A stretch of 64,000 nucleotides of DNA from Panacibacter ginsenosidivorans. GTDB taxonomy: Bacteria; Bacteroidota; Bacteroidia; Chitinophagales; Chitinophagaceae. The notes beneath the pieces were generated by a model, which was not told the origin of the DNA, did no database searches, and worked only from the letters and a program-made list of their open reading frames with translations. Numbering within the stretch: position 1 is the first letter of the stretch; each line of letters opens with the position of its first letter. The translations under genes were made by a program, and so were the position numbers. Positions 751 through 63,780 of this stretch are shown piece by piece. Location: positions 3,475,501-3,539,500 of the forward strand of contig NZ_CP042435.1 in the NCBI RefSeq assembly GCF_007971225.1, read 5' to 3'.

Positions 751-804
751 ATGGGCCGGGCTGCAGAAAGCCTGTTTAGCTTTACTTGCGTCGCACTCTT
801 GTAC
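751..804 (-). repeat. IR60 repeat, type A
   Basis: Minus-orientation copy: a GCCGGGCT-like outer end at 755-763, then TTGCGTCGCA and CTCTTGTAC ending at 804. It lies between two plus-strand genes. Confidence 0.8.
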
Positions 805-861
805 CGGATATCATTGTGCAGCATTTAAACAAAAATAAAATAACGATCGATATTCCAGCGA

Positions 862-1326
862 ATGAAAAATATAGCGGCTTGTTTTATTATTTGTATAACA
901 ACTTTTATTTCCTGCAGCAGTAATAAAAACCCGTATGAAAATAATTTAGGTATTGAACCTTCATTAATAGCACAGATGGATACGGCTAATTATACAAAAA
1001 TATTTTGGCTGGATACACTGGTAAATATTGGCACTATCAAAACAACTGATACAGCAAAAATAAAATTCAGGTTTAAAAATATTGGTGATAAAGCTTTATT
1101 CATTATTACTGCTGCACCCTCCTGCGGATGCACGGTGGCTGATTATCCCAGGGAACCGATACAGCCCGGTAAAGAAGGAATCGTAACTTCTGCTTATAAA
1201 TGGAACGGGCAATTGGGAGCGATCAGGAAAACGATCAGTGTAAGAACAAATACAACAAATGAAGCTTACCATAAGATCGCTTTTATAGGAGAGGTCATTA
1301 AAGATTCTGTAAGCAGTAAAAAGTAA
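862..1326 (+). CDS. DUF1573 domain lipoprotein
   Basis: This is a 154-residue exported protein. The N-terminus is a short lipoprotein signal ending in FISC, so Cys18 is the likely lipidated residue. Residues 50-150 form a DUF1573 immunoglobulin-like domain (ASH/PapD-like fold) with the usual PSCGCT motif (Cys88 and Cys90) followed by P-x-P-I-x-P-G. DUF1573 proteins are very common in Bacteroidota, and their molecular role is mostly unknown. It sits between FG-GAP genes and upstream of a haloperoxidase-like gene, so a role at the cell envelope is likely. The ATG at 862 is the only start that gives a normal signal peptide. Confidence 0.85.
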   Translation: MKNIAACFIICITTFISCSSNKNPYENNLGIEPSLIAQMDTANYTKIFWLDTLVNIGTIKTTDTAKIKFRFKNIGDKALFIITAAPSCGCTVADYPREPIQPGKEGIVTSAYKWNGQLGAIRKTISVRTNTTNEAYHKIAFIGEVIKDSVSSKK

Positions 1327-1393
1327 GGAATGTTTTTGCTATATAAAATTTAATGATAGTGTGGCAGCATATATGTTCAGCAAAGTATTGGGC

Positions 1394-1448
1394 GTTCAAG
1401 TGTGCGACGCAACAGAAGCTGAATAGAGAGTAATTGCAGGGACAAAAA
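1394..1448 (+). repeat. IR60 repeat, type A
   Basis: Plus copy with a degenerate first box (GTTCAAG instead of GTACAAG), then TGTGCGACGCAACAG and GAAGCTGAATAG. It lies between the DUF1573 gene and the cytochrome/FG-GAP gene. Confidence 0.75.
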
Positions 1449-1492
1449 TGGTTTTTAAATAATTTATCAGAGCTTATAACCTTAAAATATTG

Positions 1493-3067: not shown

Positions 3068-3131
3068 TTGCGGTAATATGTTTATGTTAGTTATTTAGTT
3101 TATTTTTCAAAATTAAATTTATAAGCGCCAC

Positions 3132-4451: not shown

Positions 4452-4484
4452 TAAAAGAATTTGTAAGAAAGACGAAGATAATTA

Positions 4485-4688
4485 TACCGGCCAATGTTTT
4501 TCATGGCATCGCCGGTTGTGTCACTCACTTGTACTTTCAGAACAATATTAGCAACGCAAGATGGTAGTTGTAGATCGGTTGTTAAGAACAATTACACCTG
4601 CGATTTATGATTGACGATTCAGGTTCTTCTGCACAAGAGTGCGACGCAACAGGCGATGCCACAACCAATACGGTTTGGCACACCTTAT
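4485..4688. repeat. IR60 inverted pair, type B then type A
   Basis: A minus type B copy (4485-4534, GGCATCGCC then GTTGTGTCACTCACTTGTAC) faces a plus type A copy (4631-4688, CACAAGAGTGCGACGCAAC then AGGCGATGCC). The two are separated by about 96 bases of unrelated sequence. The pair fills most of the 303-base gap 4452-4754; nothing else is recognisable there. Confidence 0.85.
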
Positions 4689-6698: not shown

Positions 6699-6720
6699 TA
6701 TGCCCGGCTGATAACAAACT

Positions 6721-6779
6721 GTACAAGGGTGCGACGCAAGAGGCGATGCCATTGGTACAACAGTTGGGTTCAAAAAAAA
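6721..6779 (+). repeat. IR60 repeat, type A
   Basis: Full plus copy: GTACAAGGGTGCGACGCAAG, AGGCGATGCC, then GTTGGGTTC and an A-run. The A-run ends four bases from the stop codon of the minus-strand Dabb gene. A GCCCGGCT remnant at 6702-6709 may be left from a second copy. Confidence 0.85.
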
Positions 6780-8457: not shown

Positions 8458-8516
8458 TTTTTATGAACCCGGCTTTATATTTTTATAGCATCGCCTCTTG
8501 CGTCGCACACGTGTAC
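8458..8516 (-). repeat. IR60 repeat, type A
   Basis: Full minus copy: TTTTTATGAACCCGGCT, GCATCGCC, then TTGCGTCGCAC and GTGTAC. The T-run begins directly after the MFS stop codon. Confidence 0.85.
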
Positions 8517-8673
8517 TTCCTGTTCACAGTTTAACAATTATACCAGTTATATCAAATTCAAACAACAGCTTAATCTTTTATGCGGCTGTTTTATTATAGT
8601 TTTTGATTGCCTGGAATATTTTTCTATTAGTGAAACAAAGGATTGTGCTTACTTTCAATCGTAATTAACCTTT

Positions 8674-11839: not shown

Positions 11840-11884
11840 TATAACTCCGTAAGCTTGTTCATCATGCTGCCTAAAGACAAAAAT

Positions 11885-11943
11885 GTACAAGGGTGCGACG
11901 CAACAAAAGCTTAATAGCAATGATATTGCCGGGCATATAAAAA
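11885..11943 (+). repeat. IR60 repeat, type A
   Basis: Plus copy: GTACAAGGGTGCGACGCAAC, then AAAAGCTTAATAG and GCCGGGCATATAAAAA. Confidence 0.85.
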
Positions 11944-13460: not shown

Positions 13461-13519
13461 TTTTTTGGTTACCGGCTTTTGTATTTCATGGCATCGGTTG
13501 TTGTGTCACTCACTTGTAC
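13461..13519 (-). repeat. IR60 repeat, type B
   Basis: Full minus copy starting immediately after a stop codon: a T-run, ACCGGCT, GGCATCGG, then GTTGTGTCACTCACTTGTAC. Confidence 0.85.
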
Positions 13520-13593
13520 GGTCGGAAGAATAATGAACAGAATCAATAATTGTTTTATAGATTTATTGGGCAAATACAAGCCTTGACGACGAT

Positions 13594-14197: not shown

Positions 14198-14260
14198 AAC
14201 ACAAGAGTGCGGCGTAACGACGTTTTTCATGGTATCGGTTGTTGTGTCACTCACTTGTAA
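14198..14260. repeat. two short IR60 copies, type A (+) and type B (-), tail to tail
   Basis: A degenerate plus type A copy (14198-14220, ACAAGAGTGCGGCGTAACG) runs directly into a minus type B copy (14222-14260, GGTATCGGTTGTTGTGTCACTCACTTGTA). Here the GTAC ends point outwards, unlike the other pairs, and the outer A/T arms are missing. Confidence 0.75.
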
Positions 14261-14350
14261 TACATCAGTTAATTCAACTCATCTATTTGTATTAAAGAAA
14301 TTGATTTGAATAATTATATTTAGCAAATCTTTCAATAATCAATCAATTTC

Positions 14351-15208
14351 ATGATGAAGTTTCTAGTAACAACAATATTTGCTGTTTTATTTTTCAATTG
14401 CAGTTTTGCTCAAACGCAGAACGACACACTTGTTCTTAAAGATATTGAATGGGATCAAACTTCCAGTGCATCGCAGATAGAACTGAATATACCATCAGAC
14501 AAAAGTTTATTGCAGGGTTTTATGTACAAAGCGAATGGTGCGCAAAAACATCCATTGCTATTATTGCTGCATGGTTACCCGGGCAATGAACGAAACCTTG
14601 ATCTGGCACAGGTTGCAAGAGCCCGTAGATGGAATGTTATTTATTTTAATTATCGTGGTTCATGGGGCAGCCAGGGAAATTTCAGTTTCGAAAATTGCGT
14701 GCAGGATGTAGTGAATGTAGTAAGCTTTTGCAAAAAATACAGCGACTCTCTACAGATCGATACTTCCAATATTGTATTGTTTGGGCATAGCATGGGTGGT
14801 TGGGTTTGTTTAAAAGCATTACAAAGATTGCCTGGTATTAAAAAAGGCTTTGCGTTATCTGCATGGAATATTTACGACGACACCAAAGATGTAAAATCAG
14901 AATCAGAATTTGTTGCCAAAGAAAAAGCAAATGGTGGTGATTATTTTGTATTAAATACTCCAATTGCTGAAATATTTAAACCTGTGTGGAACAACAAGCA
15001 ATTCTACAATCTTGCAAATGATGGTAAAGCATTGGCAGGTAAGCAAATCATCATGCTTGATGAACACAATGGCAATAAAGAAACTGCGGAAGCTTTAAAA
15101 GCAGAAAATAAAAATTACTTCGATTACGAAGTTTGGGATACAGATCATCCTTTTACCAATAAAAGAGTTGCACTTATAAAACTTGTGCTTTCATTTCTTA
15201 ATAAATAA
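14351..15208 (+). CDS. alpha/beta hydrolase, exported
   Basis: This is a 285-residue protein with a Sec signal peptide (residues 1-21, ending SFAQ). It has the alpha/beta hydrolase hallmarks: LLHGYPGNE oxyanion loop near 73-80, the nucleophile elbow GHSMGG with Ser147, and a late DTDHPF that supplies the catalytic His near 269. It resembles periplasmic peptidase/esterase types of Bacteroidota. The natural substrate is unknown. The ATG at 14354 is an equally possible start. It is flanked by IR60 copies. Confidence 0.83.
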   Translation: MMKFLVTTIFAVLFFNCSFAQTQNDTLVLKDIEWDQTSSASQIELNIPSDKSLLQGFMYKANGAQKHPLLLLLHGYPGNERNLDLAQVARARRWNVIYFNYRGSWGSQGNFSFENCVQDVVNVVSFCKKYSDSLQIDTSNIVLFGHSMGGWVCLKALQRLPGIKKGFALSAWNIYDDTKDVKSESEFVAKEKANGGDYFVLNTPIAEIFKPVWNNKQFYNLANDGKALAGKQIIMLDEHNGNKETAEALKAENKNYFDYEVWDTDHPFTNKRVALIKLVLSFLNK

Positions 15209-15227
15209 GGTGAATAATGTAAGTATC

Positions 15228-15286
15228 GTACAAGTGTGCGACGCAACAAAAGCTTAATAGTATTCCTGCAGCTTAGTTCAAAAAAA
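15228..15286 (+). repeat. IR60 repeat, type A
   Basis: Plus copy: GTACAAGTGTGCGACGCAAC, AAAAGCTTAATAG, then GTTCAAAAAAA. Confidence 0.85.
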
Positions 15287-16399: not shown

Positions 16400-16459
16400 T
16401 TTTTTATGAACCCAACTGTTGCAATGCTATAATGCTTTACTTGCGTCGCACTCTTGTAC
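16400..16459 (-). repeat. IR60 repeat, type A
   Basis: Full minus copy whose T-run follows the stop codon directly: TTTTTATGAACCCAACT, AATGCTT, TTGCGTCGCAC, TCTTGTAC. Confidence 0.85.
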
Positions 16460-16526
16460 TGTAGATAATATATTCAACATAAAATAACAAGCTTACTATA
16501 TAAAGCAATAAATTTTTTCAGCCATA

Positions 16527-18662: not shown

Positions 18663-18723
18663 TTTTATGGAACAAGCTTCAACTATAATGGCATCGGCTG
18701 TTGTGTCACTCACTTCAGGGTTC
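18663..18723 (-). repeat. IR60 repeat, type B, variant end
   Basis: Minus copy beginning right after a stop codon. The core GTTGTGTCACTCACTT is intact, but GTAC is replaced by CAGG (CACTTCAGGGTTC). The copy at 24000 carries the same replacement. Confidence 0.8.
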
Positions 18724-18744
18724 TTCTTTCAATTAAACAATTAA

Positions 18745-19095: not shown

Positions 19096-19240
19096 GTACA
19101 AGTTTTTGCAAAAGAACAAAGAATGAGCTTAAAATGTTGACCGGTATGGCTGAGTTTTTGGTTCTTTTCTTCATTCGTAAACAGAAAACAGCACTGTTGC
19201 ATTATTTTTGCCCTTCTCTTAGCCGCACTATGTACAAATT

Positions 19241-19300
19241 GTACAAGTGTGCGACGCAAGGGACGATGCCCGTTTTTACAAAAGCCGGGCTCATTAAATT
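19241..19300 (+). repeat. IR60 repeat, type A
   Basis: Full plus copy: GTACAAGTGTGCGACGCAAG, GGACGATGCC, AAAGCCGGGCTCATTAAA. It lies in the divergent region upstream of the NifU gene. Confidence 0.85.
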
Positions 19301-19989: not shown

Positions 19990-20047
19990 TTTTTTAGCCC
20001 GGCACTATTTAATTCATGGCATCTTCTCTTGCGTCGCACACTTGTAC
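19990..20047 (-). repeat. IR60 repeat, type A
   Basis: Full minus copy: TTTTTAGCCCGGC, GGCATCTTC, TTGCGTCGCAC, ACTTGTAC. It sits between the NifU terminator and pnuC. Confidence 0.85.
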
Positions 20048-20100
20048 AATTGTATTTCATGTCGGCAGAAATAAATCATTCTGCAACGTATCTTCACGCC

Positions 20101-20715
20101 ATGAGTTTGGAACAAATTACTCAGGAGTTTATAGACGGAATGAAAACTACTACATGGCTTGAATACGTGGCGGTTTTCTTTGGTATTGCCAGTGTACTTT
20201 TTTCAAGAATGGAGAATATTCTTGTTTATCCAACTGGCATAATTAATACTGTTTTATATACCTGGTTTTGTTTTTCCTGGTGGAATTTATATGCAGAAGG
20301 CAGCCTGAATTTTTATTATACGGTAATGAGTATTTATGGCTGGTATGTGTGGACGAGAAAGAAAGAAGGCAAGGTTATTCCCATAACATGGAATAATAAA
20401 AAAGACTGGCTGATCAGTGTTTCTTTTTTTATAATAAGCTGGATAGCCTTGTATTATATTTTAAAAAATCATACCAACAGCACTGTGCCATGGGGAGATT
20501 CTTTTGCCTCTGCAGCGGCTTATACAGGTATGTGGCAAATGGCAAGAAAAAAAGTAGAGAACTGGATTTGGTGGATCATTACCAACCTTGTATCTATACC
20601 GCTTTATTTTTATAAAGGAGCTGTTTTCACCAGTGTACAATACGTTGTATTTTTAGTGCTGGCAGTAATGGGCTTGATAACCTGGATCAAAAAAATAAAG
20701 CCTGCACATGCTTAA
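20101..20715 (+). CDS. pnuC: nicotinamide riboside transporter PnuC
   Basis: This is a 204-residue inner-membrane protein with about seven membrane segments and the Trp-rich features of PnuC (YPTGIINTVLYTWFCFSWWNL, SIYGWYVW, WWIITNLVSIPLY). PnuC takes up nicotinamide riboside for NAD synthesis. An ATG at 20059 is also in frame, but 20101 fits the family length better. The next gene overlaps by eight bases and encodes an NR-kinase-like protein, forming the usual uptake-and-trapping pair. Confidence 0.9.
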   Translation: MSLEQITQEFIDGMKTTTWLEYVAVFFGIASVLFSRMENILVYPTGIINTVLYTWFCFSWWNLYAEGSLNFYYTVMSIYGWYVWTRKKEGKVIPITWNNKKDWLISVSFFIISWIALYYILKNHTNSTVPWGDSFASAAAYTGMWQMARKKVENWIWWIITNLVSIPLYFYKGAVFTSVQYVVFLVLAVMGLITWIKKIKPAHA

Positions 20716-21256
20716 AAAAATTGTCATTATAGGTCCGGAAAGCACTGGTAAGAGTACCTTATGTGAGCAACTTGCAGCACATTATAAAACTGTTTGGTGC
20801 GCTGAATATGCACGTGAATATTTACTGAAGCATGGCACTGCTTACAACTTTGATGATTTGCTTACCATTGCAAAAGGGCAACTTTCTTTAGAAGAGCAAA
20901 CAATACAATCTGCAATCCGCAATCGGCAATCTGAAATCTTCATTGACACAGACATGTATGTAATGAAGGTTTGGTGCGAGTACGTTTTTGGAAAATGTCA
21001 CCAGTTTATATTGGATGAGATTGTAGCAAGAAAATATGATCTCTATTTGTTTTGCAATATTGATCTTCTCTGGGTAGCAGATGAATTGCGGGAATATCCC
21101 AATGAAGAGCCACGTAAGGAATTATACCAGATATATAAAGACATCATGATCAACCAGCAAACACCATGGATCGATATTAGCGGAGATTATGAACAAAGGC
21201 TTGAAAAAGCAATAGTTGCTGTTGATGCTATGCTAACCGGACGTACAAGTGAGTGA
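20708..21256 (+). CDS. NadR-type nicotinamide riboside kinase (AAA family)
   Basis: This 182-residue P-loop protein starts with the Walker A motif GPESTGKST (residues 9-17) and has EYAREYL near 34 and the FIDTDMYVMKVW segment near 79-90, as in the kinase half of NadR. It would phosphorylate nicotinamide riboside brought in by PnuC to give NMN. It overlaps pnuC by eight bases. Two oddities: residues SAIRNRQSEI are encoded by a tandem heptanucleotide repeat, and the last residues RTSE with the TGA stop come from an IR60 copy, so the original C-terminus may have been changed. Confidence 0.87.
   Translation: MLKKIVIIGPESTGKSTLCEQLAAHYKTVWCAEYAREYLLKHGTAYNFDDLLTIAKGQLSLEEQTIQSAIRNRQSEIFIDTDMYVMKVWCEYVFGKCHQFILDEIVARKYDLYLFCNIDLLWVADELREYPNEEPRKELYQIYKDIMINQQTPWIDISGDYEQRLEKAIVAVDAMLTGRTSE
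20907..20940 (+). repeat. degenerate heptanucleotide tandem repeat inside a gene
   Basis: About five units of AATCNGC (AATCTGC, AATCCGC, AATCGGC, AATCTGA, AATCTT) lie within the NR kinase gene, between helix EEQT and strand FIDTD. The array keeps the frame open. Confidence 0.7.
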
Positions 21257-21302
21257 CACAACGCAGCTGCCATAGAATATCAAAAGCCCGTCTCCCAAAA
21301 AA
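21243..21302 (+). repeat. IR60 repeat, type B, overlapping a stop codon
   Basis: Plus copy starting GTACAAGTGAGTGACACAAC. The stop codon of the NR kinase gene (TGA, 21254-21256) lies inside the repeat. The far end reads AAAGCCCGTCTCCCAAAAAA. Confidence 0.85.
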
Positions 21303-23973: not shown

Positions 23974-24152
23974 ATTTTTGGCTAGTAAGCTGCGGCTTTT
24001 CATAGCATCTGCTGTTGTGTCACTCACTTCAGGGTTCAGAACCATGTTAAACAAAGCTTTTGAACGTGCATTCCTGTTGCTTTTTCTTCAAAAGATACAA
24101 GAGTGCGACGCAACAGGGATGCTACTTGTACAACTGCCGGGTTCCAAAAAAT
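23974..24152. repeat. IR60 inverted pair, type B (variant end) then type A
   Basis: A minus type B copy (23974-24038) ends CACTTCAGGGTTC rather than CACTTGTAC. It faces a plus type A copy (24094-24152, ATACAAGAGTGCGACGCAAC, GGGATGCT, GCCGGGTTCCAAAAAA). Confidence 0.82.
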
Positions 24153-26885: not shown

Positions 26886-26925
26886 GAAAGTCTGCGGAAT
26901 CCAGTTCTGCAGACTTTTTATTTTT
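26886..26925 (+). terminator. rho-independent terminator after pnp
   Basis: AAAGTCTGC (26887-26895) pairs with GCAGACTTT across a 13-base loop and is followed by TTTATTTTT. Confidence 0.85.
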
Positions 26926-26927
26926 AT

Positions 26928-27070
26928 GTACTTGGCTGTAACAATACTATTTGACTTTAGTTGTGTCACTCACTTGTACGTTTTGTTCATCGCTGGACAT
27001 TGAAAGGAACCTACAAGAGTGCGACGCAACAGGCGATGCCATAATAACCACAGCCCGGTTCAAAAAGAAA
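26928..27070. repeat. IR60 inverted pair, type B then type A
   Basis: A minus type B copy with a worn outer arm (to 26979, TTGTGTCACTCACTTGTAC) faces a full plus type A copy (27011-27070, CTACAAGAGTGCGACGCAAC, AGGCGATGCC, AGCCCGGTTCAAAAAG). The spacer is only about 31 bases. Confidence 0.83.
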
Positions 27071-29583: not shown

Positions 29584-29787
29584 TTTTTGAAGCCATACAC
29601 ATGAATATAAATTAAGCTTTTCTTGCGTCGCACTCTTATACAGAAGAATAGGTTTCAGCAATCAGGTTTAAGCTAAATATCCGTGACTCATTGAATGCTG
29701 ATACCTGATAGCTGAGATCTGTGCAAAACGTACAAGTGAGTGACACAACAGGCGATGCCCAAAGAACAAATGTTTGTAACCAAAAAA
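29584..29787. repeat. IR60 inverted pair, type A then type B, with nested inverted repeat
   Basis: A minus type A copy (29584-29641, ends CTTATAC) faces a plus type B copy (29730-29787). Inside the spacer, TCAGCAATCAGGT (29655-29667) is the near-complement of ACCTGATAGCTGA (29703-29715). The pair occupies most of the 315-base gap before acs. Confidence 0.82.
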
Positions 29788-31808: not shown

Positions 31809-31838
31809 AAGTCCTGCATAAACTCCGGGATTTTTTTA
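31809..31838 (+). terminator. terminator after acs
   Basis: AGTCCTG pairs with CGGGATT (with two G-U pairs) and is followed by a T-run of seven. Confidence 0.6.
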
Positions 31839-31894
31839 TTTGTGTATCAACTCCATTGCTCCTATTGTACTTTTGTTGTGTCACTCACTTGTAC
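31839..31894 (-). repeat. IR60 repeat, type B
   Basis: Minus copy with a worn outer arm; the core TTGTTGTGTCACTCACTTGTAC-type sequence ends at 31894. It lies between the convergent acs and recO genes. Confidence 0.78.
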
Positions 31895-31915
31895 ATTCAG
31901 GTCTTTATTCAACTA

Positions 31916-32656
31916 TCAACTCAACACTTCCTGCAACACTTTTAAACTTCTTAACTCGCCAAAGCCTTCAATGTGCAGTGCAAGATATTGCGCATAAGCT
32001 TCCAGCAGTTGTCTGCGTGTATTACGGTTAAGTTGAAAATTTTCGAGATCGCTATAGAAGTTGATATTATTAATTGCAGCAGTGGTTTTGGCAAGATCAT
32101 TTGTAACATAAAAATTATGATCTGGTATAGCTGCAACAAAATTGCCATCCTGCAGATCGAGCACAGGTGTTTGCATGTTGTATTCACCCTGCACCTGAAA
32201 ACCTAATTCAGCTAGCAGATGCAGCGTAAAATATAAAGGCATGTTTGCGGTTAATGTTTCATTGCCCTTATCCAATTGTTTTAAACTGTCTTCAATCAAA
32301 TAAAATAATTCAGGATTGGCTTCGGGTTGTTTTAGTGCATGCTGTAATAATTCTATTAAATACATGGCTGCCGCATTTTTAATTACGTCAAAGAAAAGTG
32401 CGGTATATAAATAACTCCATTGATAATCTTTAATGAACTGCAGATTCTTTAATTCGTTATGATACACTTCCATTTCCAGCATTGCAGCCGGTTGAAAATA
32501 AGATGCTTTTGATGAGCCTTTTTTTGATGTTTGCCGTACGCCTTTTACAATGTAACTCTGTATGCCAAATAGCTCTGTGTACACTGTAGCAATAACACTG
32601 GTCTCGCCATACTTTACTGTACGCAATACAATGCCTTTGGTTTTATGCGTTATCAT
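31916..32656 (-). CDS. recO: DNA repair protein RecO
   Basis: This is a 246-residue protein. The N-terminal OB-fold starts with the conserved TKGIVLRTVKYGETSVIATVYT pattern (residues 4-25), and helical regions follow, as in Bacteroidota RecO, including YHNELKNLQFIKDY. RecO loads RecA onto SSB-coated single-stranded DNA during gap repair. An ATG 18 bases upstream is in frame, but 32656 places the start directly before the conserved strand and just after a promoter-like box. The usual zinc-finger cysteines are not seen. Confidence 0.9.
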   Translation of the reverse strand: MITHKTKGIVLRTVKYGETSVIATVYTELFGIQSYIVKGVRQTSKKGSSKASYFQPAAMLEMEVYHNELKNLQFIKDYQWSYLYTALFFDVIKNAAAMYLIELLQHALKQPEANPELFYLIEDSLKQLDKGNETLTANMPLYFTLHLLAELGFQVQGEYNMQTPVLDLQDGNFVAAIPDHNFYVTNDLAKTTAAINNINFYSDLENFQLNRNTRRQLLEAYAQYLALHIEGFGELRSLKVLQEVLS

Positions 32657-32768: not shown

Positions 32769-32805
32769 ACCTCTCTCTCCTTAAGAATAGGGAACGGGGA
32801 CAGGT
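32769..32805. repeat. degenerate copy of the CCCTCTCCTTAAGGAGAGGG palindrome element
   Basis: CTCTCTCCTTAAGAATAGGG followed by AACGGGGACAGGT matches the element at 40560-40595 in order and spacing but has lost the perfect palindrome. Confidence 0.65.
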
Positions 32806-32825
32806 TGCCGCATACAGAACAGAAT

Positions 32826-32885
32826 GTACAAGTGAGTGACACAACAAAGGCTCAACAGAGTTGAAAAGCTGATTTACTAAAACTT
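32826..32885 (+). repeat. IR60 repeat, type B
   Basis: Plus copy GTACAAGTGAGTGACACAAC, then AAAGGCTCAACAG; the outer arm is worn. It lies in the divergent region between recO and the YncE/phosphoesterase gene. Confidence 0.8.
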
Positions 32886-35370: not shown

Positions 35371-35525
35371 AATATTTTTGTACTTAGCTTTAGTGCTGCT
35401 ATTAAGCCTCGTTGCGTCGCACACTTGTACGCCTTATTCTTATTACTGCATTTATTTGTTGCATGTTGTACAGGAAGTACAAGTGAGTGACACAACAGGT
35501 GATGCTATAAGTACTTAAGTTAAGT
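35371..35525. repeat. IR60 inverted pair, type A then type B
   Basis: A minus type A copy (35371-35430, GTTGCGTCGCACACTTGTAC) faces a plus type B copy (35477-35525, GTACAAGTGAGTGACACAAC, AGGTGATGCT). It fills the gap between convergent genes. Confidence 0.85.
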
Positions 35526-35532
35526 GCGTGAA

Positions 35533-35778
35533 TTAATCTGTTATTTCATCAGAACTTGTGGGCAAATGATCATATTCGCCTTTCATGGCGTAATAACCGA
35601 AGATCATCATGCCAATTGCAATTGGAGCGAATACGATGATGAAAACACTCCATTGAATTTTTGTATCAATGACCGGCGTTTTTTCGATCTCGTGTAATGC
35701 AGTGATGATAAGAAAATACATTCCAACCGGTGCAAGCAGGAACCATATAATGCCTGCAAATTTTTTTATACTGTTCAT
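35533..35778 (-). CDS. small two-TM membrane protein, partner of MFS gene
   Basis: This is an 81-residue protein with two hydrophobic segments (about 8-27 and 44-64) separated by a short polar loop, and an acidic C-terminus. It starts nine bases after the stop of the upstream MFS gene on the same strand, so the two are translated from one message. I do not recognise a named family; a role as an accessory subunit or assembly factor of the transporter is inferred only from the pairing. Confidence 0.7.
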   Translation of the reverse strand: MNSIKKFAGIIWFLLAPVGMYFLIITALHEIEKTPVIDTKIQWSVFIIVFAPIAIGMMIFGYYAMKGEYDHLPTSSDEITD

Positions 35779-37454: not shown

Positions 37455-37511
37455 ATTTTTTAGTGGGCAACAGTAATTCTATTCAGCTGCTGTTGTGTCA
37501 CTCACTTGTAC
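37455..37511 (-). repeat. IR60 repeat, type B
   Basis: Minus copy: TTTTTTAGTGGGCAACAG outer arm, then GCTGTTGTGTCACTCACTTGTAC-type core ending at 37511. Confidence 0.8.
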
Positions 37512-37563
37512 GGGTTGATTATATATCGGCAGGTATGTTACACCGAGTAAGTATGTTTATTCT

Positions 37564-37878: not shown

Positions 37879-37929
37879 GGGGTAGGAATTTAGTGCATTT
37901 CTTAAAGTTCAATTTATGTAGTGCAGATA

Positions 37930-37986
37930 AAAGTATTGCGACGCAACGAAGATGCTACAAAATTCTAAAGCCCGGCTCAAAAATTT
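37930..37986 (+). repeat. IR60 repeat, type A, 5'-truncated
   Basis: Plus copy: TATTGCGACGCAACGAAGATGCT, then AAAGCCCGGCTCAAAAA-type end, which touches the stop codon of the minus-strand umuC. The GTACAAG box is missing. Confidence 0.8.
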
Positions 37987-39364: not shown

Positions 39365-39424
39365 AATTTTATATACCCAACTGTTGTATCGCTATATAAC
39401 TTTTCTTGCGTCGCACTCTTGTAC
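39365..39424 (-). repeat. IR60 repeat, type A
   Basis: Full minus copy: TTTTATATACCCAACTGTTG, then TTGCGTCGCACTCTTGTAC. It lies between umuC and the preceding 2H gene. Confidence 0.83.
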
Positions 39425-39442
39425 TGTTACAGCAATACGCAG

Positions 39443-40120
39443 CTATTTCTTTTTATAATTGGCTGGTGCAGCAAACAATGCGCCTTGCTTTACATCGGTT
39501 TTTATATGCTCAAAATCAAACCTGTTTGCTGTTTTCCACATCTTGGTGTTTTCTCTCCGCTTCAATAACAATACATGATCTGCAATAAATCTTCCATGAA
39601 AATGTTTATGCTCATATTCCAGCCAACTTTTCTCATATTGCCAGGGCAATAGTTTTCTTGCAATACTAATATTTGGCTCTGTAAGAAAATGGGGCTTGTT
39701 CTCATCATCCAGTTTCATAAGCTTTTGAGATGCTTTTAATTCTTTTACTATATCCATGATCTGCACTTTGCTTACCACATTGATATAAATCGTGTGTGAC
39801 GGAAAACTGCCAAAATTTTTCAACTCTACTTTAAAATCTAAAAGCGTTGCTGTAATATTTTTTACCAATCTTACAATATGCGTTTCCATCAGTTCATGCT
39901 GTTTAAAATGCACCAGTGTTATGCGTGGTTTTACATAGAGTGCTTCCGGACATTGGTATGTTTCTGCATACATTTTTTTCTCTTCCATAATTGCATTACT
40001 TAGTTCTTCATGTGGTTGCAATACAATTGCGTATTCATTTACCAAATAACCCGAAGATGTAAGTAAGCCTTGCTCTACGTACTTTTTCTTTTGCTGGTAT
40101 TTCTTCGTATAGATTGCCAT
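39443..40120 (-). CDS. 2H phosphoesterase-like protein lacking both catalytic His
   Basis: This is a 225-residue paralogue of the 2'-5' RNA ligase-like protein encoded at 40548-41192. The two HxT/S motifs are recognisable but changed: KPRIT has Arg66 and EPNIS has Asn150, where the paralogue has KPHIT and HPHVS. Each change is one base away from His (CGC, AAT). The frame is intact and the rest of the fold is conserved, for example NFGSFPSHTIYI. The protein is probably not a phosphodiesterase; it may bind RNA or act as a regulatory partner. It precedes umuC on the same strand. Confidence 0.8.
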   Translation of the reverse strand: MAIYTKKYQQKKKYVEQGLLTSSGYLVNEYAIVLQPHEELSNAIMEEKKMYAETYQCPEALYVKPRITLVHFKQHELMETHIVRLVKNITATLLDFKVELKNFGSFPSHTIYINVVSKVQIMDIVKELKASQKLMKLDDENKPHFLTEPNISIARKLLPWQYEKSWLEYEHKHFHGRFIADHVLLLKRRENTKMWKTANRFDFEHIKTDVKQGALFAAPANYKKK

Positions 40121-40250: not shown

Positions 40251-40437
40251 CACAGATGAGGATACAACACATCCGTGCACACGCCTTGATTAAGCTGTAG
40301 TATTATTGTGACTTCAGCAGAATAACTTTAGCTATCATGCGAAGAATTGTATTATTTCACTTCTACTTATAAATCCGCAAATCCTTTTAATCTCCCCAAA
40401 TCATGGTTCAGACAAATTGCGGCTCAATGTTCCGAAC

Positions 40438-40496
40438 GTACAAGTGAGTGACACAACAGGTGATGCTATAAGCACTAGAGTTTGTATCATAAAAAT
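40438..40496 (+). repeat. IR60 repeat, type B
   Basis: Plus copy GTACAAGTGAGTGACACAAC, AGGTGATGCT, then TTTGTATCATAAAAA. Confidence 0.83.
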
Positions 40497-41820: not shown

Positions 41821-41880
41821 TTTTTTATGAGCCAGGCTGTTGCAAACCTATGATGCTTCCGTTGCGTCGCACTCTTGTAC
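41821..41880 (-). repeat. IR60 repeat, type A
   Basis: Full minus copy: TTTTTTATGAGCCAGGCTG, TGATGCTTCC, GTTGCGTCGCACTCTTGTAC. Confidence 0.86.
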
Positions 41881-42283
41881 TGAAGGAAGAAGAGGCAACA
41901 AGGCAAGAGGCAAGGAGGCAAAGAGAAGTAAGTCAAAAATCGAAAAACACCATCTCATAAATAATTACCTATGATCAACACCAACCAATGGCATTAGAAA
42001 AATGGCGTTAAGAAACCGACGAAGGAGGTTCAGCGAGGCAAATAAAAACATAAAAATGCCGGAGCTAAATTTATGTAATGCAGCGTTAAACAGCGAAGAT
42101 GTACAGTTATAAACAAAAGATGATTTAAGTCTATGCACAATAATATTCAATAGATGATAGTAAGCTTCTTCGCTGTAGCTGCATGCAATAAATTTTGGCC
42201 ATTTTTCTGGAGCCTTGATCTTTTGGTTCTTTTGCATCAAGGCAAAAGAACAATAATAAAATAATCAGCAAAACATTTAACCA
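41881..42283. other. intergenic region before the radical SAM gene
   Basis: After the IR60 copy come about four AGGCAA-type short repeats (41891-41925), a purine-rich tract, and the hairpin at 42214-42251 that precedes the radical SAM gene. No gene is recognisable. Confidence 0.6.
42214..42251. repeat. inverted repeat GTTCTTTTG/CAAAAGAAC
   Basis: GTTCTTTTG (42226-42234) pairs with CAAAAGAAC (42243-42251) across an eight-base loop, about 30 bases before the radical SAM start. It resembles the element at 40207-40250 and may affect expression of the downstream gene. Confidence 0.65.
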
Positions 42284-47745: not shown

Positions 47746-47826
47746 TTCAATTTTTTTATGTGACCAGGTTTACCTGTAATACTACATTTTAAATAGTTTG
47801 AATAATTGCCGGGTAATTAATAAGAG

Positions 47827-47888
47827 GTACAAGTGTGCGACGCAACAAAGCTTCATAGCAGCACATTAGCTTTGTGCATAAAATAAAA
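47827..47888 (+). repeat. IR60 repeat, type A
   Basis: Plus copy GTACAAGTGTGCGACGCAAC, AAAGCTTCATAG, then TTTGTGCATAAAATAAAA. Confidence 0.83.
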
Positions 47889-50143: not shown

Positions 50144-50205
50144 TTTTTATGATACCAACTGTGGAATTTTATAGCATCGTCCCTTGCGTCGCAATCACTT
50201 CATCA
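50144..50205 (-). repeat. IR60 repeat, type A, variant end
   Basis: Minus copy: TTTTTTATGATACCAACTG, AGCATCGTCC, TTGCGTCGCAATCACTTC; the terminal GTAC has been lost. Confidence 0.78.
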
Positions 50206-50532
50206 GTATATCTTTTGTTGGCTAAATAGCAGGTAATTATAAAACATTGCAGCAGATTGAGGCAAAAGCATTTTATCTTTTTTACCTGGTAATTCAATAC
50301 AAGTATATTTCAGATGGAAGTTATATGGCGAAGATCATGTAAAAAGATGATTTTGGTTAGTTTCTTTTGCGTGGAAGGCTGGTAACTTGCTTCCTGGAAA
50401 AATGATAATATTCCTGAATTATTTTAAATAGCTGGTAGTTGTTCCTTTAGCCGTATCGGGTTGGTAAAACAATCTACGTACGGCTTTTTTATTGGATGTT
50501 ATATTTCGCATTGCTGCAAATAGCTTTAGCAG
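50206..50532. other. middle of a 658-base gene-free region
   Basis: The gap 49995-50652 between two minus-strand genes holds the IR60 copies at 50144 and 50533, and the terminator at 50601. The stretch between the two copies has no convincing frame, hairpin or promoter. Confidence 0.6.
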
Positions 50533-50592
50533 TTGAAGAGTGCGACGCAACGAAAGCTTAATAGTAGTAGTGTTGTTTGGTAACAAAAAATG
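50533..50592 (+). repeat. IR60 repeat, type A
   Basis: Plus copy AAGAGTGCGACGCAACGAAAG, CTTAATAG, then GGTAACAAAAAA; the leading GTAC is lost. Confidence 0.78.
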
Positions 50593-53221: not shown

Positions 53222-53432
53222 TTTTTATGGACTTAATGATACAGGCTATAGTGTTTCATGGCATCACCTGTTGTGTCACTCACTTGTACGTTCCGAAACT
53301 TTTAGCAACTAGCTTCGGGCCATGAGCTATTGGCTTTGAGCAATACATCATAGCTCATAGCTGTTCTTAAGTACAAGAGTGCGACGCAACCACAGCATCA
53401 TAAAAGAAATGCAGCCTGGCACAAAAAGAAAA
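53222..53432. repeat. IR60 inverted pair, type B then type A, with inner inverted repeat
   Basis: A minus type B copy (53222-53289) faces a plus type A copy (53371-53432). Inside, CATGAGCTAT (53321-53330) and ATAGCTCATAG (53350-53360) form a further inverted repeat. It is the main content of the 387-base gap 53149-53535; no gene or clear promoter is visible in the rest. Confidence 0.82.
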
Positions 53433-54760: not shown

Positions 54761-54927
54761 ATTTTTATGAGCCCGGCATTTGATGCTTGTGTCATCGCCT
54801 GTTGCGTCGCACACTTGTACTTGCATAACTATATTCAGCAATAAAATGTTATTGCTGCAAAATAGCTGACTGCACAAGTGTGCGACGCAAGGGATGATGC
54901 ATAAAGAACTACAGCCCGCTACATAAT
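54761..54927. repeat. IR60 inverted pair, both type A
   Basis: A minus copy (54761-54820, TTTTTATGAGCCCGGC ... GTTGCGTCGCACACTTGTAC) faces a plus copy (54872-54927, CACAAGTGTGCGACGCAAG, GGATGATGC, AGCCCGCTACAT). Confidence 0.85.
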
Positions 54928-54945
54928 TAATCTTCTTTATTCTCC

Positions 54946-58292: not shown

Positions 58293-58299
58293 TAGTTGT

Positions 58300-58525
58300 A
58301 TGCCAGCTGCTTTTTTTCGTGGCATCGTTTGTTGTGTCACTCACTTGTACGTTCAGAATAAACATCGGCAAGCTTATACATTTACGAGCTTAAAATATTT
58401 ACACTTTTTTAAATACAGAGAATTTATGAACCCGTGGACTTACAACCTGATGAAACTTGTTTTACAGTACAAGGGTGCGACGCAACAGAAGCTTAATAGA
58501 TATCAGACAGATCACTTCCAAATAT
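58300..58525. repeat. IR60 inverted pair, type B then type A
   Basis: A minus type B copy (58300-58350, GGCATCGTTTGTTGTGTCACTCACTTGTAC-type) faces a plus type A copy (58467-58525, GTACAAGGGTGCGACGCAAC, AGAAGCTTAATAG). It fills the gap before the TamB gene. Confidence 0.83.
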
Positions 58526-58568
58526 TCACTCAAATTTATCTAAACTCTTTTGCCAGGAGCAGTGGGTT

Positions 58569-61500: not shown

Positions 61501-63527
61501 ATATGGGAGACTTCACATCCCTTGTAACCACTAATCCAAGATTGGAGGGCCTTGCTAATGGAGTTGTTTACCTGCGTGATTTTTATACCAGATTCAATGC
61601 GCAAACAAGTTTGAAGGTAGAACAATTCAGACTTGATGATGATTCTGTTGGCGTAGTTAATTTAAATGGCGCATATAGTAGTGAATCAGGTAAAGTATCT
61701 TTTAAAGTAAAATCAGATAATGAAGATTATCATTTTGATATCGATGGTTTCTACAATGTAAAAGATTCTACAAACGAGCCTTTAAATACAACCATGCATA
61801 TGAAGGGTACAAGGATCACTTTTGTAAATACTTTCCTTGCTGGTATATTTTCAAATATTGAAGGTCTTGCCACAGGTGACCTTACAGTAAAAGGAGATCC
61901 CCGTTCCCCTGATCTTTTAGGACAGGCCACTTTAAGAAATGCGGGCCTTACCGTTGATTATACCCAGGTACGTTATACTGTTGATTCTGCAATATTAACC
62001 TTCAATAAAGGCTCTATCGATTTCGGTCGGTTTTCTATCAAAGACAAATACAATAATAAAGGTTCTGTCCGTGGTATTCTATATGAAAATGGCTTTAAGA
62101 ATATGCGTTATGATTTTGATATGGCTACTGACAAATTACTGGTGCTTGATACAAAATTTAAAGACAACCAGCAGTTCTATGGTAAGGCAATCGCTAAAGC
62201 CACCCTAAGTATAAAGGGGCCGCAGGAAAACATGAAAATGAATATTAGCGGCGAACCTGTTGATACCACCCATATCTCTATCGTTACTTCGGGTAGCAAA
62301 GAAAGCACGGATGCAGATTTTATTGTCTTTAAAAAATATGGTACGGAAATAATTGCACCAGAAAAGCAATCTGATACAAAGCTAAATATTGCACTCGATC
62401 TTGTTGCAAATAATAAAGCGCAGATCGATGTAATTCTCGACCAGTTAACCGGCGATGTTATCAGCGCTACCGGTGAGGGTAGGATGCGTATTAATGTACC
62501 GGCAACCGGCAGCATGACCATGAACGGCCGGTATAATATAGAAAGTGGTCGTTATAATTTCAACTTCCAGTCTTTTTTACGCAAACCTTTTGATCTCCGA
62601 AGAAACGCAGGTAATTACATTGAATGGAACGGCGACCCTTATAAAGCGCAAATGAAGATTGATGCACAGTATACTGCAAAGAATGTCTCATTTAATGAAC
62701 TGCTGAGCAACACAGGTATTAATCTTGGCGGCGCCGTAAGCGGTTATCGTGGCGAAGTTTACGTTATTGCGCACTTAACCGGCAATCTTAGCAATCCCGA
62801 TATCAGATTTTCGTTTGATTTCCCGGGTGGTTCACCTATAGAGAATGATAATAACCTCCAGCTCTTCCTTGCAAAAGTAGAGAACGATGATAATGAGATG
62901 ATCAAGCAGGTGACTTTTCTCATTGTATTTGGTTCCTTTGCTCCTTATGGGCAATTGGGCAATGGAGGGAACATTGCGCAGAGTACTGGCATCAATACTA
63001 TTTCCCAGCAGATAACCAATGAGCTGAATAAACTTGTTTCCAATCTTCTTACCAAAATAACCGGCGATAAAAGTCTTCAGTTTGATATTAATACTTCCAC
63101 CTACAGCAGCTCTACTCTTTACGGAACTTCTAATACACAGAACCGTTTAGACAGGCAGGTAGTAAATCTTAAAGTAAACCAAAGCATATTGAATGATAAG
63201 GTCATTATAACACTCGGCACTGGTCTCGACTTTAACCTTGGCAGTTCTGCAGTACAAACAGGTAACTTCCAGTTTTTGCCAGACATCTCTATAGAGTTTA
63301 TTCTCTCCACTGATCGTAAACTTCGTGCTATTGTATTCAATAAAAGCAGCCTTGATGTTACCACCGGCATCATTGGACGTCGCATACGCCAGGGCGTAAG
63401 CATTTCTTATTCCTTCGATTTTCCCCAGGACAAGATTCCGATACCCGTAACCGCAGTTCCATCCACTGATAGCAGCGTTATTAAACCTGAAACCAATCCG
63501 GAAATCATTATAAAAGGTAGCAAGTAA
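58569..63527 (+). CDS. tamB: translocation/assembly module TamB
   Basis: This is a very large protein (1652 residues as read). A hydrophobic N-terminus (GKRVLLGILGLLLL-like anchor near 65-90) precedes a long beta-rich AsmA/TamB-type groove (LNTEVSIKHVSISFFDKLDLDG), and the last 350 residues are the DUF490/TamB C-terminal domain (YNFNFQSFLRKPFDLR, FSFDFPGGSPIENDN). It bridges the inner and outer membranes for lipid or protein transport. No ATG lies before the anchor; TTG at 58569 or 58617, or a later GTG/TTG, must be used, and an extra hydrophobic stretch upstream of the anchor is unusual. Confidence 0.88.
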   Translation: MPFRVYLYFYRINPASLNNKFLRISSIILLALLGLYLLAYIAGYADNLLPFFILPVLVLLLSRIGRKVLLGILGLLLLVLLLLQTDYVQNIIIGAVTKRLSKDLNTEVSIKHVSISFFDKLDLDGTLIRDNKKDTLLYAGTMKVRVTDWFFLKNNIDLKYIGLENALIKMNRKDSVWNYQFIADHFASSDTTTSKDGKNITLNLQKIDLKKVRFVQQDDWIGQTMTVKIGSMLADISKTDLKHNTILVNTVDLDRPYFSIEDYDGYRPDSLRKKNTDTGMYFNTGDLLLKVASIKMTDGGFVSMKRGDVPDKGVFDGTNIRVSKINGNIENVSFIKDTIKAKISLSAFERSGFELSKLKADFRLTPQIMEFAKLDIRTPHSRLGDYYAMRYKDFNEDMSAYIEQVIMDARFRNSTVSSDDIAFFAPELSTWKQKAAISGKFLGTVDDFKVDNIFVRTDANTYATGDLTMKGLPDVGKTIITFNDATVQTNNREIAFLYPGITKITTPDMAALGNVLFRGNFKGTINNFSTTGTLSSMLGGMYADINMNLPAKGEPSYKGNIQTKQFDLGRFVRVSTLGKMSFKGKVEGRSFELDKVKTTLDGIFDSLQFNGYTYRNLTFSGAIAKEKIDGDFKADDPNFDFLSSIQIDLSDKQPSFNILGDLAKANFRSLNFTNKDFQLTGLFDLNFTGHNIDDFLGSAKILNATLLHDSTKLDFDSLSVNAYIDDANRKVLSAESNQFDVKVTGQYNILDLPNSFQSFLSRYYPAYINAPAKEPKDQRFFVQINTKDFDKYARVIDPRLSGLDYMQLSGGVNTINRDSGFYLRAEVPYAKFDKYKLENANIKGIGSADSLRLTGDVERIYIGDSLFFPNTYLNILSANDHSGVHISTSASETLNNADLNADVVTLEDGVRINFQPSSFVVNTKKWELNKEGELIIRKNFASAKNVKFSQGFQEITVETEEEEGTNASNLVVRLKNVNMGDFTSLVTTNPRLEGLANGVVYLRDFYTRFNAQTSLKVEQFRLDDDSVGVVNLNGAYSSESGKVSFKVKSDNEDYHFDIDGFYNVKDSTNEPLNTTMHMKGTRITFVNTFLAGIFSNIEGLATGDLTVKGDPRSPDLLGQATLRNAGLTVDYTQVRYTVDSAILTFNKGSIDFGRFSIKDKYNNKGSVRGILYENGFKNMRYDFDMATDKLLVLDTKFKDNQQFYGKAIAKATLSIKGPQENMKMNISGEPVDTTHISIVTSGSKESTDADFIVFKKYGTEIIAPEKQSDTKLNIALDLVANNKAQIDVILDQLTGDVISATGEGRMRINVPATGSMTMNGRYNIESGRYNFNFQSFLRKPFDLRRNAGNYIEWNGDPYKAQMKIDAQYTAKNVSFNELLSNTGINLGGAVSGYRGEVYVIAHLTGNLSNPDIRFSFDFPGGSPIENDNNLQLFLAKVENDDNEMIKQVTFLIVFGSFAPYGQLGNGGNIAQSTGINTISQQITNELNKLVSNLLTKITGDKSLQFDINTSTYSSSTLYGTSNTQNRLDRQVVNLKVNQSILNDKVIITLGTGLDFNLGSSAVQTGNFQFLPDISIEFILSTDRKLRAIVFNKSSLDVTTGIIGRRIRQGVSISYSFDFPQDKIPIPVTAVPSTDSSVIKPETNPEIIIKGSK

Positions 63528-63593
63528 TTTTTGTGTACTTGGTTTTGCTTTTATGCCGGCACTTATTATTTTTCTGTTTTTAATAAGAGCAGT

Positions 63594-63780
63594 AATTTTT
63601 TTGTTTCAAACTGCAGCATTTCATGGCATCCTGGTTGCGTCGCACTCTTTTACTCCGGCATAAATTTGCAGCAACTCATAATTATTAGGCATATAAGCCT
63701 GCACATAATTGTTCTGAAACTTTAAGTGTGCGACGCAACGATGCTCAATTGAAAGTATAGTGTTCGGTACAAAAAAGAAA
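63594..63780. repeat. IR60 inverted pair, both type A
   Basis: A minus copy (63594-63653, GGCATCCTG, GTTGCGTCGCACTCTTTTAC) faces a plus copy (63720-63780, TTTAAGTGTGCGACGCAAC, GATGCTC, ending in AAAAAAGAAA). It lies between convergent genes. Confidence 0.82.

Follow-up and report, generated by a model that had tools for sequence, protein, structure and literature searches.

The uptake sequences of Neisseria and Haemophilus comprise thousands of fixed-core sites, with inverted pairs and dialects, in genes as well as between them, and the BOX elements of Streptococcus pneumoniae are modular intergenic repeats whose modules recombine. REPINs are said to persist for a long time within a lineage, a trait shared with the repeat described here. 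Under the REPIN model, singlets should decay more rapidly than doublets. REPINs and BIMEs are built from GTAG-tagged REPs with RAYT (Y1) transposases and, as portrayed in PMC3116915, they are intergenic and numerous, form inverted doublets with spacers and are commonly found as singlets. The CGTC-tagged REPs, reported also in Bacteroidetes, are mostly head-to-head dimers, often heterodimers, with structured spacers of 20-100 bp, and PMC3733652 describes them as having no dedicated transposase. In this study I examine a repeat family of Panacibacter ginsenosidivorans, starting from a window, the whole 64-kb stretch of DNA that was analysed. The family shares the listed traits of REPINs and BIMEs but differs from them in its non-palindromic single unit of about 80 bp, in starting mostly with GTAC instead of GTAG and in having no Y1 match in its genome. 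With the CGTC-tagged REPs (PMC3733652) it has the extragenic, head-to-head and often heterodimeric arrangement in common, whereas the CGTC tag and the palindrome of 20-40 bp are lacking.

A profile search of the window yields 41 copies, 26 of type A and 15 of type B (Table 1), and a decayed type A core at 14199, which is not among the profile matches of at least 10 bits, is a 42nd. A first-pass annotation of this DNA had described a dispersed intergenic repeat of two types with about 42 copies, and its count of 27 plus 15 is explained by the 26 A and 15 B profile copies plus this decayed A core. The type A pattern, with up to three mismatches, occurs at 23 sites in the window (chance mean 0.01), and the type B pattern at 17 (chance mean 0.00), four of which are type A with T8. 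When matches below 10 bits are excluded, 668 copies are found in 1.264 Mb of the genome, and none in a reversed-sequence control. Extrapolation gives roughly 2,900 copies for the whole genome; the density is about one site per 1.9 kb, which would place the family among the denser bacterial repeat families, and about half of the genome's intergenic gaps carry the repeat.

Table 1. Repeat copies in the window, with strand and profile score (T8 and G8: base at core position 8).
Feature	Position	Strand	Match
type A, core GTACAAGAGTGCGACGCAAG	748..826	-	38 bits
type A, core GTTCAAGTGTGCGACGCAAC	1372..1450	+	38 bits
type B, head-to-head partner of 4609	4478..4556	-	59 bits
type A, head-to-head partner of 4478	4609..4687	+	34 bits
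type A (G8)	6699..6777	+	37 bits
type A	8460..8538	-	40 bits
type A (G8)	11863..11941	+	47 bits
type B	13463..13541	-	62 bits
type B, tail overlapping decayed A copy 14199	14204..14282	-	33 bits
decayed type A core, 42nd copy	14199..14218	+	pattern match, 4 mismatches
type A (T8)	15206..15284	+	48 bits
type A	16403..16481	-	48 bits
type B, variant start CCTGAAG	18663..18741	-	29 bits
type A (T8)	19219..19297	+	48 bits
type A (T8)	19991..20069	-	40 bits
type B; gene 20708-21256 ends within core	21221..21299	+	37 bits
type B, variant start CCTGAAG, head-to-head with 24073	23977..24055	-	32 bits
type A, partner of 23977	24073..24151	+	27 bits
type B, head-to-head with 26989, spacer 31	26923..27001	-	42 bits
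type A, partner of 26923	26989..27067	+	37 bits
type A, head-to-head with 29708	29585..29663	-	41 bits
type B, partner of 29585	29708..29786	+	54 bits
type B	31838..31916	-	41 bits
type B	32804..32882	+	48 bits
type A (T8), head-to-head with 35455	35374..35452	-	34 bits
type B, partner of 35374	35455..35533	+	51 bits
type B	37455..37533	-	45 bits
type A, variant start	37906..37984	+	17 bits
type A	39368..39446	-	44 bits
type B	40416..40494	+	56 bits
type A, consensus core	41824..41902	-	48 bits
type A (T8)	47805..47883	+	38 bits
type A, variant start TGAAGTGAT	50146..50224	-	21 bits
type A, variant start GTTG	50510..50588	+	41 bits
type B, head-to-head with 53349	53233..53311	-	53 bits
type A, consensus core, partner of 53233	53349..53427	+	41 bits
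type A (T8), head-to-head with 54850	54764..54842	-	47 bits
type A (T8), partner of 54764	54850..54928	+	40 bits
type B, head-to-head with 58445	58294..58372	-	58 bits
type A (G8), partner of 58294	58445..58523	+	45 bits
type A, head-to-head with 63698	63597..63675	-	27 bits
type A, variant start CTTTAAG, partner of 63597	63698..63776	+	26 bits

The copies avoid genes. Only 7 of 667 lie within called genes, and 3 of 667 more than 23 bp deep in one, though 82-84% of the sequence is coding (genes were called with my own hexamer-score caller, whose gene starts are rough); in the window, a single core midpoint out of 41 (copy 21243 +) falls in a called gene, whose end is at most 4 bases away. The claim that nearly all copies sit between genes therefore holds, and the random scatter inside genes that had been named as grounds for rejecting it did not occur. 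The same near-absence from genes sets the repeat apart from the uptake sequences of Neisseria and Haemophilus, as does its homologous unit of 80-187 bp. A core that labels DNA of the own species for transformation, and becomes frequent because labelled DNA is preferentially taken up, could account for the thousands of copies, the constancy of the core beside loose flanks, the two 'dialects', the inverted pairs, the old positions shared between genomes and the patchy distribution in the family. With so few copies inside genes, and with flanks homologous on either side and copies of 187 bp pointing to the spread of whole units, I nevertheless regard this origin as very improbable. A literature search on uptake sequences in this phylum returned nothing relevant by title.

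The unit spans -22..+57 relative to the core start, so that its length is about 80 bp and not the 60 bp first estimated. The core mostly starts with GTAC, less often with GCAC, GTTG, GATG or CCTG. A run of at least five A is present in 28 of the 41 window copies (400 of 668 in 1.264 Mb). Two further dyads, supposed to be part of every full copy, are in fact rare: GGC-N3-GCC is found in 5 of 41 and 44 of 668 copies, AGCC-N-GGCT in 3 of 41 and 36 of 668, and no copy holds both. The window has no Rfam 15 match at gathering score, and literature searches gave no named family with this core, as the annotation had supposed. A search with 12-base strings gave two papers, both on plants judging by their titles. 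The repeat resembles BOX, compared by description only, in being modular and intergenic, and differs in sequence and host.

More than half of the copies (366 of 668) are single units, and these neither form the palindromic stem-loop of 20-40 bp typical of a REP monomer nor carry an unpaired GTAG or CGTC end. One unit is found in 460 gaps and two or more in 19, against 110-114 expected at random. Neighbours less than 400 bp apart are head-to-head in 164 cases, tail-to-tail in 12 and never in the same orientation. The head-to-head pairs are A-B in 119 cases, A-A in 44 and B-B in one (102, 44 and one without a tandem array), although the congener G058 shows no such excess of heterodimers (13, 7 and 5). 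Selection against perfect palindromes was considered as the cause of the A-B pairs and rejected, as the partners in 38 A-A pairs differ no more than shuffled partners do (3.08 vs 3.01, sd 0.16, P 0.39). The right halves within a pair show no extra likeness (0.578 identity vs 0.596 for random copies). Some spacers contain the repeat CGTCATTGCGAAGC, which I take to be CGTC-like by comparison, and the whole unit with copies 29585 and 29708 is itself repeated in the genome.

With respect to neighbouring genes, orientation in co-directional gaps is near random (79 sense, 104 antisense), and no chromosomal strand bias was seen in 100-kb bins. Convergent gaps are nearly full, with 35 of 38 occupied at 120-200 bp and 22 of 22 at 200-300 bp, vs 9 of 25 and 15 of 31 for divergent gaps of these lengths. 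Where the tail points toward a gene end, 94 of 357 copies have their core start at a distance of 50-60 bp from the stop codon. This spacing, the full convergent gaps and the RNA hairpins that head-to-head pairs would form are what a transcription terminator or another mRNA-level element at gene ends would show. However, an intrinsic terminator has a hairpin and then a T-run, both in the sense of the gene upstream, whereas single copies do not fold beyond shuffles, sense and antisense copies are about equal, divergent gaps are occupied as well, and in relatives copies lie inside operons, between rpoB and rpoC, between the genes of ribosomal protein S4 and rpoA, and between those of NADH dehydrogenase subunits; such a role is scarcely credible. 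(The assignment of atpB/atpE in G103 and of rpsD/rpoA in L208 is tentative, resting at most on protein-start similarity to L554.) Near-random orientation, a single unit per gap and, at equal gap length, the highest occupancy in convergent gaps would fit a DNA-level, BIME-like chromosome site used by the host, with a nucleoid, topology or gyrase-like protein bound to the duplex core and one site per gap kept for host benefit, even though divergent gaps must house two promoters, which alone possibly lowers their occupancy.

The core exists in two discrete states. Positions 10, 12 and 16 read TCG or ATA in 573 of 579 strict cores (T10-C12-G16 in 368, A10-T12-A16 in 205, others in 6). Position 8, which had been listed with these three as separating the types, does not do so: among 174 type B copies 171 have T, and type A is unconstrained there, with 175 A, 85 T, 12 C and 9 G. 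A candidate third state, G-G-C in 5 copies, is absent from the strict tally and results from a one-base register slip of type B, seen in one single copy. The paired change at positions 12 and 16 had been taken as a sign of selection on a dyad, and these positions almost never vary apart, so that the independent variation that would have spoken against it did not occur. However, in 634 copies the mutual information of 12 with 16 (0.94) is equalled by that of the unpaired position 10 with 12 and 16 (0.99 and 0.94). Because the unpaired position is linked as tightly, and because a core with just two states offers one contrast only, the 12/16 change is no evidence for a dyad. The type differs in 3 of 20 congener copy pairs, among the copies of one G103 subfamily and between genera upstream of rpoC.

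Single copies (80 drawn per stretch) fold no better than their shuffles, with a mean z of -0.17 for the core, -0.14 for the core plus right half and +0.17 for the whole unit, vs -0.06 for a control stretch, whereas head-to-head pairs (80 of 151) reach a z of -3.2. In one relative, the core centre is replaced by a double hairpin in 13 copies. In this long variant, 6 of 20 hairpin pairs are changed on both sides, and compensatory cells number 15 vs 3.9 in shuffles (0 of 500 shuffles; copies containing N were dropped). The double hairpin places an apex where the first-pass annotation had put its dyad, which partly rescues that proposal.

Within the family, exact type A cores are present in 65 of 147 genomes, with 0 to 1,377 per genome, and absent from 82, including congeners of rich ones; in one genus G103 has 235 and G003 none. 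Judging from the positions shared with a congener and upstream of rpoC, the copies are old. Both congeners carry copies in 17 of 54 shared gaps, and orientation agrees in all 11 shared gaps that hold one copy per congener, which alone test it, because the 20 copy pairs used for flank comparison (of the 29 own copies in those 54 gaps, 20 were used and nine, having no partner, were left out) were matched by orientation. Their flanks say little on age, since identity is barely above that of random copies (0.62 against 0.59 for the right half and 0.59 against 0.53 for the left). A core in the same orientation lies upstream of rpoC in 12 of 29 family genomes, at a distance of 75-89 bp from the rpoC match in 11 of them, and 10 of the 12 are also profile matches of at least 21 bits; the scan covered 600 bp with up to 3 mismatches, for which I estimate about one chance match per strand over the 29 genomes. 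One reversed match (G009) may be due to chance. The G025 loci were picked by the type A pattern, and nothing is drawn from their types. In 15 aligned pair regions, 14 of them from a tandem array of MacB/FtsX-like paralogues, the two cores have pairwise identities of 0.85 and 0.93 vs a column mean of 0.63.

That cores are conserved at orthologous and paralogous loci whose flanks have diverged, and that copies persist next to genes of RNA polymerase in genomes whose exact cores number 1, 2, 26 and 32, again favours the host site, and core conservation at single loci could equally mean host function. However, 82 of the genomes lack an exact type A core, and a plain site needs neither the genome-specific dialects of the flanks nor long near-identical copies. 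In G103, two of 66 compared copies match at 95.7% over 187 bp, and the right-hand end falls at +55..65 in 780 of 1,428 local matches, the left-hand end being variable. On balance I consider the host site unlikely, although deserving of serious attention.

A linked REP-associated (Y1) transposase, whose search had been proposed, was not found: the P. ginsenosidivorans genome has no match to PF01797. Of 25 relatives, 14 have copies and 11 lack an exact type A core; a Y1 match is present in 11 of the former and 9 of the latter, so Y1 presence does not track copy number, and a Y1/RAYT link was rejected for the own genome and these relatives. A repeat core is found at 7 of 30 Y1 loci, about the density expectation by estimate. 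Two cases could hint at a link: in G070 the only Y1 gene is flanked by two type A copies with heads facing it, about 880 and 290 bp off, and in G027, which has 45 exact cores, about 250 bp separate a copy from a Y1 match, but two copies within 3.3 kb in G070 are expected by density, as estimated. The short, intergenic unit with its sharp right end and the head-to-head pairs, which resemble long terminal inverted repeats, would also suit a classical MITE or a repeat that owes its mobility to an IS or Y1 enzyme persisting in some lineages. Yet single units have one core each and no terminal inverted repeats, and the right halves of pairs are not alike, which, with the Y1 distribution, makes this origin improbable. 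Neither a clean empty site nor a target duplication was observed; in the only comparison of a filled with an empty site, extra sequence is present on both sides, and no two genes enclosed by inward heads were alike among 59 (23% of the genome, genes unannotated). Candidate half-core pairs, which might have marked large elements inserted in a core of the own genome, proved to be ordinary variant cores.

The explanation I favour, at slightly less than even probability, is a resident population of small non-autonomous repeats of one bacterial family, organised and inherited like REPINs and yet a separate family. From left to right, a unit has a flank that varies, a constant 20-bp core of type A or B, a right half that can be exchanged and an A-run at its end, and units are placed once per intergenic gap, as a single or as a head-to-head pair. 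The core may be the recognition site of a putative trans-acting factor, probably read when the strand is folded or extruded, core positions 12-15 forming the apex. The repeats would have spread in bursts in some lineages, as the near-identical 187-bp copies of G103 suggest, followed by very long vertical inheritance in which selection keeps the core and flanks drift; the factor, selection on its binding and spread by DNA copying are inferred from these patterns. A further reading is distinctly doubtful, namely that A and B are two specificities in an address system, read as a folded strand by a dedicated factor at one unit per gap, switched as a block with almost no intermediates, with an apex that admits a double hairpin without loss of activity. 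Both the block switch and the covarying hairpin suggest that a specific enzyme or binding protein is at work, which could be sought by comparing congeners. This class of repeat is little described in the phylum Bacteroidota, and as the same loci can be compared across rich, poor and empty genomes of one family, it offers a test case of whether repeat populations persist as parasites or as host sites.

A longer-range repulsion is also indicated, with 24.7% of units less than 1.5 kb apart vs 32.2% (sd 1.6; tandem array left out), which false small genes from my caller could cause. One unit had no match in phages and plasmids, and the 82 stretches in IMG/VR matching a 15-base pattern are about the chance number by estimate, except for UViG 2920066549, which holds several.

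The first-pass annotation had counted about 42 copies of the repeat in the window; the profile recovers 41 (26 of type A and 15 of type B), and one decayed copy completes the count. Over the whole genome, I found the exact 16-base core at 1,255 sites for type A and at 662 sites for type B, against zero occurrences of the reversed 16-base patterns that served as a control. With a threshold of 10 bits, a profile search of 1.264 Mb of this genome gave 668 copies, against none in the reversed sequence; the density of 0.53 per kb extrapolates to some 2,900 copies per genome, provided that the remainder is alike. The same core is present in at least 80 named records, and among the matches listed most are Chitinophagaceae or unplaced Bacteroidota, with Limnovirga, Foetidibacter, Segetibacter, Cnuella, Terrimonas, Hydrotalea and Flavisolibacter among the genera; the few unrelated organisms listed look like chance matches. 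Of 147 genomes of the family, 65 have the type A core and 49 that of type B. At the level of the class, type A was found in seven of 395 genomes, five of which are members of the Chitinophagaceae and two of which are others with single matches. Copy number is uneven even inside genera (235 vs. 0, 122 vs. 0 and 327 vs. 1). Phage and plasmid records searched with one unit, and Rfam searched with the window, returned no match.

Each unit consists of some 22 bases of left flank (frequently TTGCTGAATAaaGTTC.GAAC), the core of 20 bases, a right half of roughly 37 bases that varies among several interchangeable forms (..GGCGATGCCAT.. and ..AAAGCTTAATAG.. being frequent), and a CCGG.TCA-AAAAA end. Both of these right-half forms are found with either core type. 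The first-pass annotation took the paired change at core positions 12 and 16 as evidence of a dyad. However, nearly all strict cores read either T10-C12-G16 or A10-T12-A16 (573/579 in this genome, 122/122 in the congener G058, 34/34 in the relative G103 and 334/341 at other loci), with a mutual information of 0.99 between positions 10 and 12, and of 0.94 for both 12-16 and 10-16. As position 10 is part of the same two linked states, the change at 12 and 16 alone proves no base pair, and types A and B are two alleles at the level of the unit. Both types occur within otherwise alike units in G103, and in three of 20 copy pairs compared with the congener, one genome has A and the other B at the same site.

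Nearly all units are placed between genes. Only seven of 667 core midpoints lie inside called genes, compared with a called coding fraction of 82-84% of the sequence, and four of these seven are at most 23 bp from the gene end. One called gene terminates at the TGA within a type B core, so that the repeat supplies its stop codon (see the table). One unit is present in 460 of the 941 gaps and two in 19, and 462 are empty, whereas random placement of the 498 units would give 110-114 gaps with two or more. Among gaps of 200-300 bp that are not part of the tandem array described below, occupancy is 90% for the co-directional (n = 97) and 48% for the divergent ones (n = 31), and all 22 convergent gaps are filled. 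Single copies in co-directional gaps are sense in 79 and antisense in 104 instances. Where the tail points toward a gene end, the unit often adjoins the stop codon, and the core starts 50-60 bp away in 94 of 357 cases.

Coordinates of the features discussed
Feature	Sequence	Position
Window	single-contig genome of 5.53 Mb	3,475,501-3,539,500
Called gene ending within a core	window	20708-21256
Type B copy holding its stop codon	window	21221-21299
Long spacer with palindrome family	window	29642-29729
Long spacer with palindrome family	window	53290-53370
MacB/FtsX-like tandem array	own genome, C1 (L073-L076)	~249-300 kb
Y1 match in the richest genome, G070	L488	~1501-1845
Single exact type A core in two congeneric species	L089, L090	~1455-1560

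Several comparisons indicate that the copies are old and vertically inherited. The congener G058 shows 67-81% identity over its ten strongest matches, and among 54 gaps between the same gene pairs, copies are present in both genomes in 17, in P. ginsenosidivorans only in seven, in G058 only in one, and in neither in 29; where each genome has one copy, the orientation is the same in 11 of 11 gaps. Upstream of rpoC, a core with at most three mismatches is found in 12 of 29 family genomes, always in a single orientation (type A in seven, type B in three, decayed in two), while in one further genome the match is reversed and the remaining 16 lack one. Counted from core position 5, the distance to the rpoC match is 75-89 bp for eleven of these cores and 138 bp for that of G123; ten of the 12 are profile hits of at least 21 bits. 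For G123, with 5.6 Mb of sequence, the rpoC copy is the sole exact type A core; G100 and G038, which have 26 and 32 exact cores, respectively, likewise have a core at this place. A copy located between rpoA and the gene for ribosomal protein S4 is common to G029 and G100, both of low copy number. I inspected 27 loci (7 + 20) in poor genomes, and the six identified by Pfam (rpoB-rpoC, S4-rpoA, an NADH dehydrogenase pair, lepA, COX1-UbiA and a trpB-like gene) show that several last copies adjoin housekeeping genes.

Judged by eye, the rpoC leader of several genera (L511, L510, L515, L521, L518, L514, L528, L527) also shows conservation of a promoter-like TACCTTTG and of the start region, and directly in front of the core it has a small hairpin (CCTTG..CAAGG, CCTGAT..ATCAGG, CTTAGTG..CACTAAG), the arms of which seem to change together. 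Two congeneric species with 1.9-Mb assemblies have their only exact type A core in the same place, flanked by what by eye are a short SET-like gene and a uvrA-like gene.

The array comprises about 19 MacB/FtsX-like paralogues, one of which was examined with Pfam; it carries a -B/+A pair in 17 of its gaps and offers a natural series for the evolution of the repeat after duplication. In 15 aligned pair regions, 14 from the array and one A-A pair from outside it, the two cores have pairwise identities of 0.85 and 0.93, against a column mean of 0.63.

Neighbouring copies less than 400 bp apart are head-to-head in 164 cases, tail-to-tail in 12 and never same-oriented, with core-to-core spacings of mostly 24-32 bp or about 50-120 bp. 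The 164 pairs comprise 119 AB, 44 AA and one BB (102, 44 and one without the array), where type frequencies predict about 73, 71 and 19, respectively; this excess of AB is absent in G058 (13 AB, 7 AA, 5 BB). Folding of 80 drawn pairs gave a mean z of -3.2 (AA -5.2, AB -2.6), whereas single copies do not fold well. Many long spacers carry other palindrome families of words of about seven bases (GAGCTAT, AAAAGTC, GTTTACA, CTGTCGA, TGATACC), and a few head-to-head spacers a CGTCATTGCGAAGC repeat; both seem to be located at the apex of the pair.

A variant in which a double hairpin, some 53 bases long, takes the place of core positions 12-15 was found in 12 copies of G103 and in one copy on a contig of Chitinophagaceae UBA4857, and in none of the copies in the 1.264 Mb. 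Each of the 11 exact CGATCCTATCGGATC sites in 395 kb of G103 precedes the right end of a core; to their left, the core start is present in the six readable cases, the other five being masked or cut off. Across the 13 hairpin copies one arm pair reads UA in nine, AU in two, CG in one and GC in one. Six of 20 pairs are altered on both sides, in 15 cells compared with 3.9 (sd 1.5) in shuffles, none of 500 of which reached 15; sliding the partners by 1-3 bases left at most one two-sided pair. This is true covariation, and at least in the hairpin variant the folded strand is therefore under selection. The position of the variant places the core centre at the apex. Other hairpins lie at or near some core centres (CCCCGAG..CTCGGGG, CAATTTGC..GCAAATTG; G103 C7 and C3, L218, L236), as if this centre attracts or tolerates them.

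I read the repeat as a REPIN-like resident population, the core of which would be recognised by a putative trans factor, most likely in folded form. This reading draws on the long inheritance, the single unit per gap, the core that is kept while the flanks drift, and the spread of whole units with homologous flanks in G103, where comparison of 66 copies puts the right end at +55 to +65 in 780 of 1,428 local matches, with a variable left end, and the closest pair is 95.7% identical over 187 bp (-130 to +57). The main rival is use of the sites by the host, although host use and a REPIN-like population can both be true. As far as the accessible parts of these papers go, inverted doublets and singlets are shared with REPINs (PMC3116915), and CGTC-tagged REPs (PMC3733652) likewise form head-to-head heterodimers, have structured spacers and lack a dedicated transposase; the accessible text of PMC12306157 does not contain the word 'chitinophaga'. 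The repeat lacks both the palindrome and the tag of REPs, and is thus not filed as a REP.

The linked Y1 transposase that the first-pass annotation proposed to look for, and which is the enzyme of REPINs, was not found in the genome of P. ginsenosidivorans. As Bacteroidetes Y1 subclasses with atypical flanking structures are described in the part of PMC6006769 consulted, Y1 was also tested in relatives, where its presence does not track copy number (11 of 14 genomes with copies have a match, as do 9 of 11 without). In G070, two type A copies flank the single Y1 gene with their heads toward it, roughly as expected from the copy density of this genome, and G027 has a copy at a distance of about 250 bp from a Y1 match; these two cases could still speak for a link.
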